Below the pieces are notes generated by a model. It searched no databases, was not told the DNA's origin, and was given only the letters and a program-made list of their open reading frames with translations. Below, one piece after another: positions 22,582 through 30,044 of a stretch of DNA of 64,000 bases. The translations under genes and the position numbers were made by a program. Position 1 is the first letter of the stretch; each line of letters opens with the position of its first letter. The stretch is from assembly GCA_003671275.1 (NCBI GenBank), contig QWPB01000184.1, positions 62,001 through 126,000 of the forward strand. Direction: 5' to 3'. The DNA comes from Planctomycetota bacterium. GTDB taxonomy: Bacteria > Planctomycetota > Planctomycetia > Planctomycetales > Planctomycetaceae.

Positions 22582-25500
22582 CTAGTTGGTTGCGGGCGGG
22601 GCCGCTGCCGCCGGGGGTGGCGGCAGATCCACGGCCTTTCCGTGTCGCTCCAGCATCTTGTAGTAGTTCATCAGTGCGTCCACGGTCGCCTGAATCTGCG
22701 GAGCCCCCTGCCCACCGAAGAACTGTGAGTAGACAGGTTTATCCGCCGCATAGATCTGCAGCATCGAGGTGTAGGGCGTCACCCACTTCGGATTGGTCAC
22801 CCACAACTGGACCCAGTCAGGTCGCAATCGTTTTTCCACCTGATCCAGATTGGGGCCTCGAATGTCCTTGGTCGGATCGACCAGGACATATTCGCGACCG
22901 CCGACCTGATGACATTTCTTGCAGTCCCCACCGGACAACATCTTCCAACCAGCGGTGATCCGATCCTCAGCGGCCCCCGGGAAGGCGGCCTTGTGAGCAG
23001 CCTCCATCCGGTCCAGATAATCGGGAGATTGACGCTCGTTGGTCTGGTAGGGGAACTCGGCTCCATCCACAGCTGCAAAGTAGTTCGCGAGCACCATTGC
23101 CTCGGAATCGTCCATGTTGAACTTCGGCATCCGCAGAACGGTCGTGTGGCGAATCTGCTGGGGATCTTTCAGGAACTGGTACAGCCACGGAGTCTGCACC
23201 TTTTGACCTTCACGTACCAGGGGAGGAGGCGAGGCCTGCCAGGCGATATCACCGATCCCGTTCGTGAGATTTTCCATCAACTGGGGGACCAGCCAGTGAG
23301 CAAATTCCCCACCGCGTCCCGTGCCCCGCGAGATCAACTTCTGCACCGGAATTCCAACAGGATCACCGGGGAAGAGCGTCTTGTCGCCGACCTTCATCAC
23401 GTCCCAGCTGGTCACGTACAGGATCTGATCTTCCAGGCTTTCCAGCAGATCAGGTTCTTGCTTTACCAGCCCGTGAACGGAAAGGATCAATTCCCCCGAC
23501 TTTGTCTTGGGAACCCGATGAGGATCGAACACCGTCGGAGTGACAAATTTCTCCAACAGCTGGACAGAGTCGGGATAATTGTTCGGAGTCAGCCCGGGAA
23601 CCTGTAGATTCTCCAGCGAGGTGGCGAACTCGAACTTCGGCATTTCCAGAACGTGGCATCCCCCACAGTTGTACTTCGCGAGCAGGCGTTCCCCTTCCAG
23701 GCGGGCGGCCTTCGCTCCTGAAGCTTTGTACTGGTAGGCCGGGGCGGGCGGATCGGCTACGAGACCCACGACAAACGTGGCCACGGACTCGATCTGCTTC
23801 TCCGTGAACGGGAACTTTGGCATCCGCAGACGCTCGTCCCACCCCTTGGTCTCGATCTTCTTGTAGTCATAGCTGCGGGGATCACGAAGCTTCTGCCAGA
23901 TGAACCCCGGACGCCCATGATGGGTCAGGCTGTTGATGTAAAACGCTGCCGAGAGATCTTCGGGCTTGGCATCGCCATCATTCTTCTGACGTTCGACCGC
24001 ACCTTCGACCCGTGCCAGTGTACTGGAACCATCCGGCTCACCGTGGTGATGCAGGTACTCGGCAATGTGCTCCGGTGCCAGCTTGGCCGGATCCTTGCGG
24101 CCCCAGTCCTGAAGGGCGACACCGATCGGGCCCGCCTCTTCAAATCCGGGGATGTCATGGCATCCGTAACAGCCATAACGCCCAATGGTTTTGCGACCAA
24201 CGTAGAGCTGCTTTTTCCGTTGCCACTCTGCGGCATCGAAGGCCTGATCCGGGGCGAACAGAAGCTCGACTTCGTCCCCCTTCACGAGATCCGCGCTCAC
24301 CGGGTATTTCCCGCTTTGCATCGTCTCGTTGACCTGGGCCATTGAGGGGAGAGCCTTCTTCAGGTACAGCCGAACCAGATCATCCAGCGGTGAAGAGACC
24401 TGAACCTCGCTTGTCAACGTTGCTCCGTTGCGAATGAAAGTCAACGTGACCTTTTCACCGGAATGAAGCTGTGCCACCTGCTCGTGCAAGCTGTCGACCG
24501 AGCGGATGGTCTCAGAGCCCAGTTTCACCAGAATGTCGTCTACCAGCAGGGACTTTTCCGCGAGATCTAGATTCTCCAGGCGGGTCGCGGCTGATCCCGG
24601 CAGCACTTCAGATACTCGAACACCGACATGATCCGCCCCGAGAGCAGCAGCTTCCTCGGCGGTGAACTCGGGGTCACAAACCACACCCAGCACACTGGTC
24701 GATTGAGCGAATTTTGGAAACTCGGTGGCTCCCTTGGCCAGCAGGAAGGCTGCAATGTCAGCGGCTGGGTCGACGTACTTCTCCCCTTCGCCCTCGGGCT
24801 TCAGGAACAGATTCGGCATCTTCGTCCGGGTATGGTACTTACTTGGCTCATTGAGCCAGGTGTACATCCACAGGAACCCATCGACACCGGGTTTAATCTT
24901 CTCATGAATTCGCGAGAGGTCCGGACCGAAGTCGGCGTTCACGCCCTTCAACTCGGCATCGTCATACGAGTGACACGCCATGCATCCCCGGCGAGAGAAG
25001 AGCAGCTTGCCCCGCTCAGGATTGACGACATAGCCATCCTTCGGCTTCAGCAGCGTCAGCGGCTGGGACCTCTGTTCGAGGTAGGCCGCCGTGGCCTCCA
25101 ATTCCACCGGCTGCAACATCTCCGCCAGATGATCGTTCTGGTTGGTATTGCCGAAGAATTTCGGCATTTTGGTCGTTGGGCGGAACGCCTGGGGATCTTT
25201 GACCCACGCGGCGATGAACTCCGACGAGGACTTCTGTGCGATATGCCGTAGTGATGGACCAACCTTCCGCATTTTCCCGGCAACTGCCGTGGGATCGGCG
25301 GCAATCTTCGCAGCCTGCTCTTCACTACCGGGTTCCAGACGCAGATCTGGACCGATCGGCTTGCCAGCATCAAAGCCGTTCACCTCATGGCAACCGTAGC
25401 AGCCGTATTCGCTGATCAGACGATGCCCTTCGACCACTTGCGGAGCCGAGTTGCCGTGCTTGTCGCTATGAGCCAGTTCCGTGATGCCGTGATGGCAACG

Positions 25501-26601
25501 AATACAGGCTGCTTCTGCCAAGTGCTTCGGATACATCGGCACTTCCCAGAAGTGATTGGAGTGCCAGTGATGGTTCTCCTCCCACAGCGCAGCCTGAGCC
25601 GGATTGCGGGGGCTGTGTTCGGCGTTCTGGAACGACGTGCCGGACCCATCGCCTTCATGACAGATCGTGCAGCCGAACTTGTCAATCGGATGTGCACTGG
25701 TCGCTGTGAGGAACAGGTCGGGATTCGGATGAGCCGAGAACGGCTGGGCGTAGGTCCCATGTTCGCCGTCCCCAGCGGGATAACCAGCCACATTGCCGGC
25801 GGCAAAATCGTTGATGTTCACATGACATGACCGGCAACGATCCACACGGTCGACATTGGCCATCCCCAGCTGCTGCTTCAGCCCCCGGGGCCAGTCGTAT
25901 TGAATCTTGAGGTGCGGATTGAAGCCGTTAATGATCGGCCATTCCTTGAATGCCCGCTTGAAAGCCACCGCTTTGTTCGAGGGCTTCAGCAGTTCAATCT
26001 GTTCCTGAATGGCGACCTGGCTGGCCTTGAGTTTACCCAGCTCTGCAATCTGGTCTTCGACCGGCTTCTTCAGTACGGTCAGTGATTCAGTCTTCGCCGT
26101 CGTCTCGGTCTTTACGGTTTCCACCAGACGGGCATACTCTTCAGACTTCAGCTGCTCAGCGTCATATTTGGCTTTGACCTTGGCCAGCTGGTTATCGGGG
26201 ATCGCATCGCGGACAGCGATATCAAATTCAGCCCGAGCCACGTCCCGCTTGGCATTCTGAAACTTGGCTTCCGTCGAGATCCGGACGACATCGCCCTTGA
26301 GCTTGTCCACCTCTCCAGTCAGCTTCGCGATCTCGGTGGTTGCATCGCCCGTGGTCAGAGATTGAATCTGCTTTTCGATGGTCTCGATCTGCGTTTTCAA
26401 CTGATCGGTTTGAACGGCTTTCAGCTCACTGTCCAGCTTCTGCAGCTTGAGTTCTTCGGCCTGGCGCTGGTAGTCGCGCCATTCCCGCTTCTCATCGCGA
26501 GCCATCATCAGCAAGGTGGCGGCAAACAGCGCGAAGGCGCTGGCGGCAAATACCTTGTGCATCGTCCCGAGATCGCGCCAATACTGATCGTTCGCTGGCA
26601 T
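22582..26601 (-). CDS. Octaheme c-type cytochrome with coiled coil and PDZ domain
   Basis: A 1339-residue protein. It has an N-terminal membrane anchor (about residues 14-33), a long charged coiled coil (about 37-205), then eight CxxCH heme sites at 256, 311, 366, 401, 540, 811, 979 and 1227. A PDZ-like domain lies between the fifth and sixth hemes (about 636-736, with VRVSEVLPGSAA and GEKVTLTFIRNGA). The tail is Pro/Ala-rich. It follows the Rieske, cytochrome b and subunit-IV-like genes and takes the place of cytochrome c1/f in the complex. Multiheme partners are known for anammox planctomycete Rieske/b complexes, but I do not recall a PDZ insert there. The frame is continuous, so this is a real fusion. 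Confidence 0.9.
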   Translation of the reverse strand: MPANDQYWRDLGTMHKVFAASAFALFAATLLMMARDEKREWRDYQRQAEELKLQKLDSELKAVQTDQLKTQIETIEKQIQSLTTGDATTEIAKLTGEVDKLKGDVVRISTEAKFQNAKRDVARAEFDIAVRDAIPDNQLAKVKAKYDAEQLKSEEYARLVETVKTETTAKTESLTVLKKPVEDQIAELGKLKASQVAIQEQIELLKPSNKAVAFKRAFKEWPIINGFNPHLKIQYDWPRGLKQQLGMANVDRVDRCRSCHVNINDFAAGNVAGYPAGDGEHGTYAQPFSAHPNPDLFLTATSAHPIDKFGCTICHEGDGSGTSFQNAEHSPRNPAQAALWEENHHWHSNHFWEVPMYPKHLAEAACIRCHHGITELAHSDKHGNSAPQVVEGHRLISEYGCYGCHEVNGFDAGKPIGPDLRLEPGSEEQAAKIAADPTAVAGKMRKVGPSLRHIAQKSSSEFIAAWVKDPQAFRPTTKMPKFFGNTNQNDHLAEMLQPVELEATAAYLEQRSQPLTLLKPKDGYVVNPERGKLLFSRRGCMACHSYDDAELKGVNADFGPDLSRIHEKIKPGVDGFLWMYTWLNEPSKYHTRTKMPNLFLKPEGEGEKYVDPAADIAAFLLAKGATEFPKFAQSTSVLGVVCDPEFTAEEAAALGADHVGVRVSEVLPGSAATRLENLDLAEKSLLVDDILVKLGSETIRSVDSLHEQVAQLHSGEKVTLTFIRNGATLTSEVQVSSPLDDLVRLYLKKALPSMAQVNETMQSGKYPVSADLVKGDEVELLFAPDQAFDAAEWQRKKQLYVGRKTIGRYGCYGCHDIPGFEEAGPIGVALQDWGRKDPAKLAPEHIAEYLHHHGEPDGSSTLARVEGAVERQKNDGDAKPEDLSAAFYINSLTHHGRPGFIWQKLRDPRSYDYKKIETKGWDERLRMPKFPFTEKQIESVATFVVGLVADPPAPAYQYKASGAKAARLEGERLLAKYNCGGCHVLEMPKFEFATSLENLQVPGLTPNNYPDSVQLLEKFVTPTVFDPHRVPKTKSGELILSVHGLVKQEPDLLESLEDQILYVTSWDVMKVGDKTLFPGDPVGIPVQKLISRGTGRGGEFAHWLVPQLMENLTNGIGDIAWQASPPPLVREGQKVQTPWLYQFLKDPQQIRHTTVLRMPKFNMDDSEAMVLANYFAAVDGAEFPYQTNERQSPDYLDRMEAAHKAAFPGAAEDRITAGWKMLSGGDCKKCHQVGGREYVLVDPTKDIRGPNLDQVEKRLRPDWVQLWVTNPKWVTPYTSMLQIYAADKPVYSQFFGGQGAPQIQATVDALMNYYKMLERHGKAVDLPPPPAAAAPPATN

Positions 26602-26670: not shown

Positions 26671-28035
26671 TCAGATGTTAAAGAACCATTCCGGAATGGC
26701 CACGATGTACTTCAGATTGAAGGCCCACCGCAGAACCATCTTGATGGGCAGCAAGGCCATGAACAGCAACAGGTTCGCCAGCACCATGTAACGGATGACA
26801 CCCATCCGGACATAGAACTTGCGAAGGAAGGTCAAGGCCATCAGATTCGGCAAGGCCATGAAATATCCGATGACCATCAATATCCCGACACCTTCTCGCA
26901 TGAAGATGGCAAGGCATTGACTGATCAGTCCGGATGCCGGGTCGGGCTTGGGCAGCGGTTGCTCCAGATTCACGACCCAGATGATCTCGCTGAGGTTCCG
27001 GTTGTTCAACACTTCGAGTTTGTGAACATCCCAGAACTCATACAGGCCAAACATATTCCAGTTAGGACCACGAATGAACGTTCCGAGGACGATCATCCCG
27101 ACCCACAGGGGAATAAAACCAAACAGGAAGATGATCACCGAGAACTTGCGATCGGCGAACGAGTAATACCCGTTCCCCTTCTTGTTGAAGTCGATGTACG
27201 GAATGGCCATCAGCCCCTGAACAATGACCAGCGGCAACACCACTCCCGCAAGCCACGGATCGAAGTACACCAGCATTTCCTGAAGCCCGAGGAAGTACCA
27301 GGGGGCCTTCGACGGATTCGGCGTCTTCACTGCTTGACCGGGCTCTTCCAGCGGAGCCTGAAGAAAGACTCCCCAGACAATCAGCAGAGCTGTCAACAGA
27401 ATCATGCAGAGCATTTCCGTGTACACCAAATCGGGCCACACCAGCACCTGCTCTTTCAGCTCCTGTTCCGCCAACGGGCGGCCTTCCGCCACACGACGGT
27501 CGTTGTCCACAGCCTTCTTAAAGTAAAGCCACGTGAAGTAACCCCCAATGAACAGCATCCCCACGATGGGCACATTGTCCGGCTTTCCGACAATCTGCCG
27601 GAAGTCATAGTCGGTCATACTGAGACCGAGAAACAGGCAACCCACATTGAACAGGATCCAGCCCACGGTGTCGCGGGTGAGGAATTCACGCCAGACGATC
27701 ATCCCCACAAACGCCGCCACCGACAGACCAAAGTAGATCCGGGCATCGCGAAAGATCACATCCACCGACAGCTTGAACCACTCGGGCAGGCGGAGCAGAA
27801 ACTCCTCCGGAGCGGATCGCGAAGTCAGATGCGTTACCGCCAGCAGCATCAGAAACGCCGCATAGAACGCCCAGACCGTGGCCTTGGGAATATGCTGAAA
27901 CCCGAGCACGGACTCGTAGTACCCGTCGCGCTTATAGCTGCGCATGGTCCAGCCAATATTGGCAAGGAACAGCAGCATATACAGCCATCCAAGGCCGTTA
28001 ATCACGCCGTGTGTGAGATCAGGATGAGCGTGCAT
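26671..28035 (-). CDS. Cytochrome b/b6 C-terminal (subunit IV)-like membrane protein with extra helices
   Basis: A 454-residue polytopic membrane protein. The central part (about residues 195-300, TPNPSKAPWYFLGLQEML) matches the C-terminal half of cytochrome b, equivalent to subunit IV (PetD). The Qo-site motif PEWY is replaced by APWY at 244-247. Residues 1-175 add about five membrane helices and the C-terminus adds more (about 385-445), so it is much longer than a plain subunit IV of about 160 residues. It lies 104 bases after cytochrome b. It should complete the quinol oxidation site of the complex. Confidence 0.85.
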   Translation of the reverse strand: MHAHPDLTHGVINGLGWLYMLLFLANIGWTMRSYKRDGYYESVLGFQHIPKATVWAFYAAFLMLLAVTHLTSRSAPEEFLLRLPEWFKLSVDVIFRDARIYFGLSVAAFVGMIVWREFLTRDTVGWILFNVGCLFLGLSMTDYDFRQIVGKPDNVPIVGMLFIGGYFTWLYFKKAVDNDRRVAEGRPLAEQELKEQVLVWPDLVYTEMLCMILLTALLIVWGVFLQAPLEEPGQAVKTPNPSKAPWYFLGLQEMLVYFDPWLAGVVLPLVIVQGLMAIPYIDFNKKGNGYYSFADRKFSVIIFLFGFIPLWVGMIVLGTFIRGPNWNMFGLYEFWDVHKLEVLNNRNLSEIIWVVNLEQPLPKPDPASGLISQCLAIFMREGVGILMVIGYFMALPNLMALTFLRKFYVRMGVIRYMVLANLLLFMALLPIKMVLRWAFNLKYIVAIPEWFFNI

Positions 28036-28139: not shown

Positions 28140-28913
28140 CTACAAGGGCTGACTGATGCCGCCATCCTTGCGGACGCGCCAGAAGTGAATCGCAATCAAC
28201 AGCGACACCACCACTGGAATGGCCACACAGTGCAGGATGTAGAAGCGATTCAGAGTTTCTTCACCGACGTTCCGGGCTCCAAGGAGCAGGAACCGGGCGT
28301 CAGACGCATTGGTAATCAGGTCGTAGCCCCCGATGTTCAACAGCTGAAAGCCCGGACCTTCGTGACCAAGCACCGGATGGGCGCGAGCCATGTTCGATCC
28401 GACGGTGATCGCCCAGATGGCCAGCTGATCCCATGGAAGCAGATAGCCCGTGAACGACAGCAGCAGGGTGAGCACCAGCAGCAGCACGCCGATAACCCAG
28501 TTGAACTCGCGGGGCGGCTTGTAGCTGCCCGTGAGGAAGACGCGATACATGTGCAACCACACAGTAATCACCATCGCATGGGCTCCCCAGCGATGGATTT
28601 CCCGCATAATCCCCAGTGTGGTCACATCTCGCAGGGCGCGAATGTCGGTAAAGGCCCACTCCAGCGTGGGCCGGTAGTAGAACATTAACAGCACACCCGT
28701 CAGCGCCTCGACCAGGAACAGGAAGAACGTTACCCCGCCCATACACCAAGTGTACGACAGAGCAATCCCGCCCTTCTGAGCTGACACCGGATGCAGGTGC
28801 AGAAAGAAGTTGGTCAGCACGACGACCGCACGATTTCGGCGATCGGTCGGTGCCGGATGCCGGAAGATGCTTCGCCAGATCTGCGAATTGCGAATTGTCT
28901 CACCGATCGACAT
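28140..28913 (-). CDS. Cytochrome b6-like subunit of a Rieske/b complex
   Basis: A 257-residue cytochrome b N-terminal protein with four core membrane helices. The heme-ligand His pairs are H107/H121 and H228/H243; the 14 and 15 residue spacings are those of cytochrome b6. C57 in YTWCMGG lies where b6 carries the Cys that binds the extra heme c_i. Charged Arg residues and the GYLLPWDQLAIWA motif (about residues 156-168) are typical of the Q-site helix. It is encoded 75 bases after the Rieske gene and forms the quinol-oxidising core with the subunit-IV-like protein. Confidence 0.93.
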   Translation of the reverse strand: MSIGETIRNSQIWRSIFRHPAPTDRRNRAVVVLTNFFLHLHPVSAQKGGIALSYTWCMGGVTFFLFLVEALTGVLLMFYYRPTLEWAFTDIRALRDVTTLGIMREIHRWGAHAMVITVWLHMYRVFLTGSYKPPREFNWVIGVLLLVLTLLLSFTGYLLPWDQLAIWAITVGSNMARAHPVLGHEGPGFQLLNIGGYDLITNASDARFLLLGARNVGEETLNRFYILHCVAIPVVVSLLIAIHFWRVRKDGGISQPL

Positions 28914-28988: not shown

Positions 28989-30044
28989 CTATCCGACCCG
29001 CACGAATGACTTGGGGTCAGTCCACTGCCCGAGTTCTTCCTGGAACTTCAAGCTCTTGTCGACTTCCAACAAGCCATCCGCACCGAGGACCAACCCCACC
29101 CGCTCCAGCGGACGCGGAGCCGGCCCCTCGAAGTTGATGCCGTTGATGTAGAAGCCCGACCCGTGACACGGGCACTTGTATTTCTGCTCAGCATCCAACC
29201 AGCTGGGGGTGCATCCCAAGTGGGTACAAACTGAGGAAAGCGCGTAGACGACATTCTGGCCATCGTAGCTGTCGGTATGAACAATCCACACCCCCCGACT
29301 GGCCTTAAACTTCTCTGACACAGTACCGAGCGGAAAATCGCCCAGCGACCCGATCTTGAACTTACTTGGCAGCTCAAGCACCGTATTGGGCATCATGAAA
29401 CGGGCAATACCCAGCCCCCACAGCCCCCCAATGGCCGACATCAGCGTCCACGCCATGTAGTACGGGGTGCAGATCAACTCAAAGAAGACCGCCGGGAAAG
29501 AACGGCGAGGCAGCTCTTGCTTCTTGCCAGCCGCTGCGGACTTGGGGGGAAACTTCGGTTTGGCCGATTCGGTCACAACCGCAGATCCCGCTCGCATGGC
29601 CTGAATCATTTCGGCGGGCGACTTTCCCGCGGATGCCGGAGCGGCAACCTTCGGGGCCACCGCTACAGCGACCGACGCTGCGGCAGGAGCGACACCCGCA
29701 GCGGCAGCTCCCTTGGCGCGGATCGCCGCCATAATGTCCGACGTGCCCTTCGGCTTAGCCGCTGGAGTTCCACTGGCTGGAGTTCCAGCTGCCGGAGCAG
29801 GTGGCGCGGCCGCCACAGGAGCGATGGCCCCCTTGGCGCGAATCGCCGCCATGATATCGGCTGTACCCTTGGGCTTGGCTGCGGGAGTGGCCGGAGTCAC
29901 TGCGGGTTCAGCCGGAGCTGAAGCCGCCGCAGGCACTGCCGATGCTTCAGTCGCAGGAGCCGGAGGGGGCGCGGAGGCACCTTCGGCGGACTTCTTGCGA
30001 AGCATCGCCATGATCTCGGCTGTGGACGGTTTCTTGTCGGTCAT
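28989..30044 (-). CDS. Rieske iron-sulfur protein with repeat-bearing N-terminal extension
   Basis: A 351-residue Rieske protein. The [2Fe-2S] boxes are CTHLGC at 273-278 and CPCHGS at 291-296, followed by GPAPRPL. One membrane helix lies at about 187-218. The first 175 residues are unusual: an Ala/Pro-rich extension holding four copies of a short helical motif, TAEIMAMLRKKSA (8-20), TADIMAAIRAKGA (61-73), TSDIMAAIRAKGA (101-113) and SPAEMIQAMRAGSA (142-155). This part should face the cytoplasm. It is the first gene of the respiratory block, 250 bases downstream of the cyclophilin gene. Confidence 0.93.
   Translation of the reverse strand: MTDKKPSTAEIMAMLRKKSAEGASAPPPAPATEASAVPAAASAPAEPAVTPATPAAKPKGTADIMAAIRAKGAIAPVAAAPPAPAAGTPASGTPAAKPKGTSDIMAAIRAKGAAAAGVAPAAASVAVAVAPKVAAPASAGKSPAEMIQAMRAGSAVVTESAKPKFPPKSAAAGKKQELPRRSFPAVFFELICTPYYMAWTLMSAIGGLWGLGIARFMMPNTVLELPSKFKIGSLGDFPLGTVSEKFKASRGVWIVHTDSYDGQNVVYALSSVCTHLGCTPSWLDAEQKYKCPCHGSGFYINGINFEGPAPRPLERVGLVLGADGLLEVDKSLKFQEELGQWTDPKSFVRVG

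Follow-up and report, generated by a model that had tools for sequence, protein, structure and literature searches.

Repeated short motifs in the N-terminal extension of a planctomycete Rieske protein and in the tail of an SH3-like protein suggest a common docking system

Multivalent short docking motifs are known mainly from Rubisco condensates and polar hubs. In the Rubisco linkers EPYC1 and CsoS2, short docking motifs are repeated along a disordered chain. In PopZ, from the polar microdomain of Caulobacter, clients are bound by helix 1, which is short and conserved and sits on a disordered, Pro-rich chain (PMC9926476). On the side of the electron-transfer complexes, PetP is a cytoplasmic-side subunit of cytochrome b6f with a fold grouped with those of FTR, NdhS, and PsaE (PMC9342900).

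The Rieske protein described here is encoded in a 64-kb stretch of planctomycete DNA, which we call the window (Table 1). Like the Rieske subunits of the bc1 and b6f complexes, it has a cluster-binding domain, a single N-terminal anchor, a twin-arginine pair, and adjoining cytochrome b and petD-like genes; it differs from them in having an arm of about 178 residues with putative docking motifs. The protein matches PF00355 (Rieske) at 30.5 bits, above the curated cut-off of 20.3, and contains both Cys-His ligand boxes (CTHLGC and CPCHGSGF), which identifies it as a Rieske [2Fe-2S] protein. It falls below the cut-offs of both the bc1 equivalog TIGR01416 (52.8 bits against 97.4) and the b6f (PetC) equivalog NF045928 (55.6 bits against 250). 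Positions 29565-30044 correspond to residues 1-160 of the open reading frame on the minus strand, and the plus strand of this interval does not encode these residues. The twin-arginine pair, which we take to be a Tat signal, is followed by one hydrophobic stretch, and the pair together with a single membrane helix would place the arm on the cytoplasmic side. Beyond the multihaem cytochrome, cytochrome oxidase genes follow in the same direction, as judged by eye. We also noted that the multihaem cytochrome (22582-26601), whose gene adjoins the cytochrome b genes, has a long N-terminus that looks coiled-coil-like by eye, and that the petD-like protein (26671-28035) is far longer than ordinary subunit IV, with a weak Cytochrom_B_C match.

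Table 1. Features of the Rieske gene and of neighbouring genes in the window.
Feature	Position	Strand	Basis
Rieske iron-sulfur protein with motif-bearing N-terminal extension, 351 aa	28989..30044	-	ORF; Pfam PF00355
Motif 1, residues 8-20 TAEIMAMLRKKSA, N-terminal motif class	29985..30023	-	low-confidence AlphaFold2 helix 8-18
Motif 2, residues 61-73 TADIMAAIRAKGA, middle class	29826..29864	-	low-confidence AlphaFold2 helix 62-70
Motif 3, residues 101-113 TSDIMAAIRAKGA, middle class	29706..29744	-	no helix called in low-confidence model
Motif 4, residues 142-155 SPAEMIQAMRAGSA, juxtamembrane class, ~37 residues before twin Arg	29580..29621	-	low-confidence helix 143-151
Twin-arginine pair, residues 180-181 (RRSF), start of likely export signal/anchor	29502..29507	-	sequence; same position in most relatives
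Membrane anchor helix, ~residues 183-217	29394..29498	-	hydrophobic sequence; long helix in low-confidence model
[2Fe-2S] cluster ligand region CTHLGC ... CPCHG, residues 273-295	29160..29228	-	sequence, Pfam
Cytochrome b (b6-like), downstream, same direction	28140..28913	-	PF00033 139.4 bits
454-aa protein with cytochrome b C-terminal/petD-like region	26671..28035	-	PF00032 24.0 bits, cut-off 20.7
1339-aa multihaem cytochrome c with PDZ-like region, same direction	22582..26601	-	domain search

The initial annotation described four short repeats within residues 1-160, and all four are present. They follow the pattern [STP]-x-[DE]-[IM]-[LMI]-x-x-x-R and are spaced along the Ala/Pro-rich extension. 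When we shuffled the first 178 residues 200,000 times, 199,998 of the shuffled sequences had no motif match and 2 had one, against four in the real sequence; because the pattern was derived from the four window copies, its fit to them is built in. Over 18 codons, repeats 2 and 3 have 42 of 54 nucleotides in common, so a fresh DNA duplication does not explain them. Compared with a congener (G002), 56 of 60 motif positions are identical, 25 of these through different synonymous codons, while the linkers are identical in 71 of 132 columns, with 19 gapped; from the twin arginine onwards the identity is 143/172. Within the extension, constraint is thus strongest on the motifs, and the arm has the character of a selected, repeated motif carried on a linker that evolves fast. 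The full-length AlphaFold2 model has a mean pLDDT of 43 and is usable for helix positions at most.

Conservation extends well beyond close relatives. Among the 59 genomes in which we sought the Rieske protein, our own included, we inspected the 30 best loci, and motif arrays were found in 29 of them, each with at least two matches to a loose pattern (112 in total); the 30th locus (L027) is interrupted by a contig end. The usual order is a single N-terminal motif, then one to three in the middle, and finally a juxtamembrane one, which lies some 37-64 residues ahead of the twin arginine. In family f2 the repeats read TLKEKLAAARAGG, with the frame unchanged and Lys replacing Ile; the variant TLKEKLAAAR was seen in the six proteins read from the 29 Rieske-positive f2 genomes. 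Distant Rieske proteins (G039 and G041) have short extensions without motifs. As a separate observation, one genome without such a Rieske gene (G023) contains a standalone frame of up to 309 aa (L076 123-1052, minus strand), divergent from an adjoining D-glutamate-cyclase-like gene, in which the exact TADILAAAR motif occurs twice alongside several looser copies. At two other loci (L166 and L176), the Rieske gene sits beside the D-glutamate-cyclase-like gene where G023 has the motif frame, and the G023 frame looks like a Rieske gene that has lost the Rieske part and kept the arm.

A search of the whole genome that contains the window with the DNA pattern of the motif gave five places, and the reversed control gave none. 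Three of the places are in the window Rieske gene, one is in an unrelated 338-aa protein, and one is in a 209-aa SH3-like protein outside the window (contig 156 of G000). The latter protein consists of a 72-residue N-terminal domain and an Ala/Pro-rich C-terminal tail with the motifs KSPLDAIRAAG, VSPLDAIRKQM, and RPKTTADILAAIRKQ. The SH3-like domain was found in 46 of the 59 genomes, and the protein in 271 of 397 genomes of the class (268 strong matches and three weak ones). A cultured relative, Thalassoglobus neptunius KOR42, has an SH3-like protein of this kind (L121). In 61 genomes that were scored, the tails have one to six motif matches, mostly three to five. Tails in family f1 are mostly of the SPLELARQQGA type, often ending at the last residues, and those of other families are of the TADILAAAR type, with the exact TADILAAAR motif in several families. 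Several tails hold both types, and because the two interchange in position we judged that they could be treated as one class. Three paralogues of the SH3-like protein (L188 2378-3985, L191 6001-7836, and L269) lie in frames of 536-612 aa that contain numerous SPLDxIR-type repeats and end in a helix-hairpin-helix-like region, which matches HHH_5/DUF4332 in L191 and was recognized by eye in L188 and L269.

The AlphaFold2 model of the SH3-like domain is confident (block means 81-96 over residues 1-70), and two of the tail motifs are modelled as short helices with lower confidence. The domain aligns with NdhS (6khi_S, Z 8.1, rmsd 2.3, 60 aligned; another NdhS, 7.9), with the variable chain of ferredoxin-thioredoxin reductase (Z 7.8), and with PetP (2n5u, Z 7.4, rmsd 2.9, 66 aligned), but KOW/NusG-type folds tie with PetP and NdhS (KOW-type Z 7.8 and below), and the best Foldseek match is Spt4/5 (E 0.008). 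No convincing sequence kin of the domain was found in Pfam, NCBIfam, or PDB sequences. PetP, NdhS, the FTR variable chain, and PsaE are small subunits of photosynthetic electron transport with an SH3 fold that the motif-bearing protein may share, its Z scores of 7-8 being tied with those of the KOW type, and to our knowledge none of them has a tail with a motif array. In 5 of 80 SH3 loci, the motif-bearing Rieske gene has the SH3 gene about 3 kb upstream of it. The modelled fold, this proximity, and the co-evolution described below are suggestive of a link between the SH3-like protein and the cytochrome b complex. We also considered function from other neighbours: in 32 of the 80 SH3 loci (L115-L194) the SH3 gene is immediately followed by a LarC-type nickel-insertion gene (one copy of which was checked in Pfam), whose product often has a His/Asp-rich C-terminus, and we regard this as probably incidental.

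The initial annotation had proposed searching for the motif in other planctomycete proteins, and the motif turned out to be nearly exclusive to these two families. A motif profile of 19 positions (20 rows, four of them not exact copies of real motifs) gave 27 matches at E<=1e-3 in six whole genomes, of which 26 are in the Rieske and SH3-like families; the remaining one is in the linker of a nitrite reductase fusion (G006), and the next best match has an E of 0.077. The motif pattern was found in 135 of the 397 class genomes, with four matches overall for the reversed control. We fetched 40 stretches around pattern matches, picked to span families, and the 39 that were read comprise 26 SH3-like tails, 7 Rieske extensions, and 6 others. 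Apart from the G006 linker and the L225 protein described below, the further matches that were read lie in folded proteins or doubtful frames. A strict SPLE-type pattern gave eight matches in three of ten genomes, all in the SH3-like protein, with one control match; it missed the SH3 protein in 7 of the 10 genomes, our own included, and is too strict for showing absence.

The fusion protein in G006 (L077 1885-4767) combines nitrite/sulfite reductase, Rieske, and FAD/NAD reductase parts and has one STADILAAARAG motif in its linker; the two homologues of the fusion that were read lack this motif. A 200-aa protein in G396 (L225 1176-1775, minus strand) starts with MNKPSTADILAAARAAKK. We considered whether the motif is a general tag of many enzymes and rejected the idea, as these two proteins were the only extra carriers among the matches read.

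The repeats of the Rieske extension are real, selected, and specific. The initial annotation had named two results as speaking against it, that the repeats would not be conserved in close relatives or that similar low-complexity tails would occur on unrelated proteins without motif conservation. Given the conservation beyond close relatives and a profile that yields almost only two families, we found neither.

The two proteins tend to be present or absent together. A profile of the Rieske core is positive in 220 of the 397 class genomes at 1e-30, and outside f2 the SH3-like protein occurs in 184 of 191 Rieske-positive genomes. Among the 124 genomes of family f1, 92 have both proteins, 1 has the Rieske protein only, 14 the SH3-like protein only, and 17 neither (Fisher p 1.2e-11, uncorrected for kinship). 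The 14 genomes with an SH3-like protein and without this Rieske protein mean that the SH3 tail must have a separate use. The Rieske protein without an SH3 match was seen in G292, and also in G018 in the first genome set. In f2, none of the 29 Rieske-positive genomes has an SH3-like match, while the Rieske motifs persist. One genus of f1 (g54) accounts for 15 of the 17 genomes with neither protein, and all 15 of its sampled genomes are of this kind. The motifs themselves also come and go together. In the motif-bearing families, 61 of 63 paired genomes have motifs in both proteins, and the other two are cut by contig ends; 11 genomes are motif-free in both (six in f3, three in f8, and one each in f4 and f6). 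One f7 genome (G045) is mixed (motif-free Rieske protein, SH3 tail with a single motif-like stretch), and two further f7 genomes (G075 and G272), with a motif-free Rieske protein, are outside the joint count. Because joint presence and absence amounts to few lineage-level changes, we give it moderate weight.

The residue before the motif Arg provides a finer comparison. In both proteins most genera have Ala at this position, and others have an Ile-like residue (I, V, L, or M). The two proteins agree in 54 of 61 genomes (19 Ile-type in both, 35 Ala-type in both, and 7 discordant), leaving out G016, where the SH3 tail is cut by a contig end, and G022, where the Rieske arm is cut; G001 and G002 were omitted from a first small test only. 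On a tree built from the Rieske core and the SH3 domain, in which support is weak for 28 of the 58 inner branches, each trait requires eight changes, and Ile-type pairs arise in about five separate places. A purpose-written Pagel-type likelihood test gave an LR of 20.9 (4 df, p 3.3e-4). For calibration, the SH3-tail state was tested against 105 variable columns of both folded domains, and the maximum LR was 11.8; the motif pair, at 20.2 in the shorter fit, is above all 105 control columns. Linker Ile content is flat between the classes (0.0046 and 0.0049), the Ile share of the core does not differ (p 0.94), and linker Ala is 0.34 versus 0.31. A phylogenetic sign test on well-supported branches, which is underpowered, has 3-4 independent pairs, with 1.6-1.7 changing the same way and 0 the opposite way. 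An uncorrected column test for the SH3 domain had a best p of 2e-9, which we read as phylogenetic confounding. The co-variation is the strongest evidence that both arrays may meet one surface.

Based on these sequence comparisons, we lean, with moderate confidence, towards a reading in which both arrays dock on one common surface on the cytoplasmic side. The Rieske extension would be a disordered cytoplasmic arm with several copies of one helical docking motif, laid out as an N-cap Ser or Thr, an acidic residue, a hydrophobic pair, an Ala-rich turn, and Arg, and the separate SH3-like protein, of the putative PetP/NdhS fold class, would bear an array of the same motif class. A single binding surface, most likely on a third protein, would read both arrays and thereby keep the SH3-like protein together with the Rieske/cytochrome b complex, or collect both at a single site on the cytoplasmic face. 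The initial annotation had suggested multivalent binding sites on the cytoplasmic side that could cluster complexes or bind a soluble partner. This is supported in part: the docking reading survived the tests of conservation, specificity, and co-evolution, and the cytoplasmic location, the helical bound state, the common reader, and the clustering would be what the proposal adds to them.

Part of this evidence could be accommodated without a third protein if the Ala-rich helices pack against each other, so that the arms of the Rieske protein and the tails of the SH3-like protein are joined in a homotypic network. In that case the Ala/Ile switch would reflect matched helix packing, and the co-variation would be accounted for without a missing partner, as would the f2 genomes with motifs and no SH3-like protein and the SH3-only genomes without the Rieske protein. 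Isolated 10-residue helices associate weakly, however, and the carriers of a single motif (the G006 nitrite reductase linker and the L225 N-terminus) look more like client tags. We judge this explanation unlikely, and treat direct motif-motif packing as a serious rival.

It is less probable still that the SH3-like domain is itself the reader, binding the motif in the Rieske protein and in its own tail as a two-component scaffold. Domain and motif do occur together on one protein, and the domain accompanies nearly all Rieske-positive class genomes outside f2 (the 184/191 above), but its columns show no excess over the Rieske core in tracking the switch (1 of 41 above an LR of 9.5, versus 3 of 64), f2 retains the motifs without the domain, and the genomes read from f3, f4, f6, and f8 have the domain without any motif. 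For these reasons we favour a third protein as the reader over the SH3 domain.

The gene neighbourhood raises the idea of a maturation tag: the extension would bring an iron-sulfur carrier or a chaperone to the precursor ahead of twin-arginine export, and the SH3-like protein would take part in the same pathway. At the two loci read fully, the SH3 and Rieske genes are separated by a gene for an ApbC/Mrp-type iron-sulfur carrier, the product of the L166 copy matches the ApbC/NUBPL families, and in 8 of 80 loci an Mrp-like gene follows the SH3 gene at a distance of about 1 kb. This adjacency is nevertheless rare and lineage-bound, with a nickel-insertion-type gene nearby instead in 32 of the 80, maturation of most Rieske proteins proceeds without an arm of this kind, and several motif copies are left unexplained, which makes a maturation tag distinctly improbable. 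That the repeats are chance or composition-driven features of a low-complexity Ala/Pro tail with no specific function fits the freely varying Ala/Pro-rich linkers, but it is contradicted by the shuffle test, by motifs more conserved between congeners than the Rieske core, by the genome-wide specificity, and by the co-evolution with flat Ile controls, and we consider it highly implausible.

If the third-protein reading is right, a bacterial respiratory complex would be organized by multivalent docking motifs common to a second protein. A motif peptide of the STADILAAARAQ or SPLELARQQGAA type would be a ready probe for the reader, and the matched Ala/Ile switches predict which genera would have exchangeable motifs. 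It would also point to an uncharacterised planctomycete SH3-like family whose members are likely to be partners or co-clients of the cytochrome b complex. More tentatively, it is possible that in several families of Planctomycetes a cytoplasmic scaffold on one hub, reading a common helical tag, brings together the Rieske/cytochrome b complex, a PetP-like SH3 regulator, and in some cases a further redox enzyme, such as the nitrite reductase fusion of G006, in a membrane-attached electron-transfer assembly.

In the titles and abstract beginnings returned by our literature searches, we found none on these repeats, and the two-protein docking-motif system is one that we did not find described there. 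The motif of alphaproteobacterial PopZ (...EEILASIR...) resembles that of the Rieske arm. PopZ helix 1 is single-copy and belongs to a different host group, whereas the planctomycete motif is multi-copy. When we looked for a kinship, the profile of this short motif retrieved no PopZ among PDB sequences at E<=10. With EPYC1 and CsoS2 the Rieske arm shares a chain of repeated docking motifs, with unrelated cargo and an unrelated motif, and the membrane-attached assembly proposed here would be a respiratory counterpart of the pyrenoid/carboxysome linker principle. Unlike in EPYC1 and CsoS2, the planctomycete array is an extension of a membrane respiratory subunit and recurs on a second protein.
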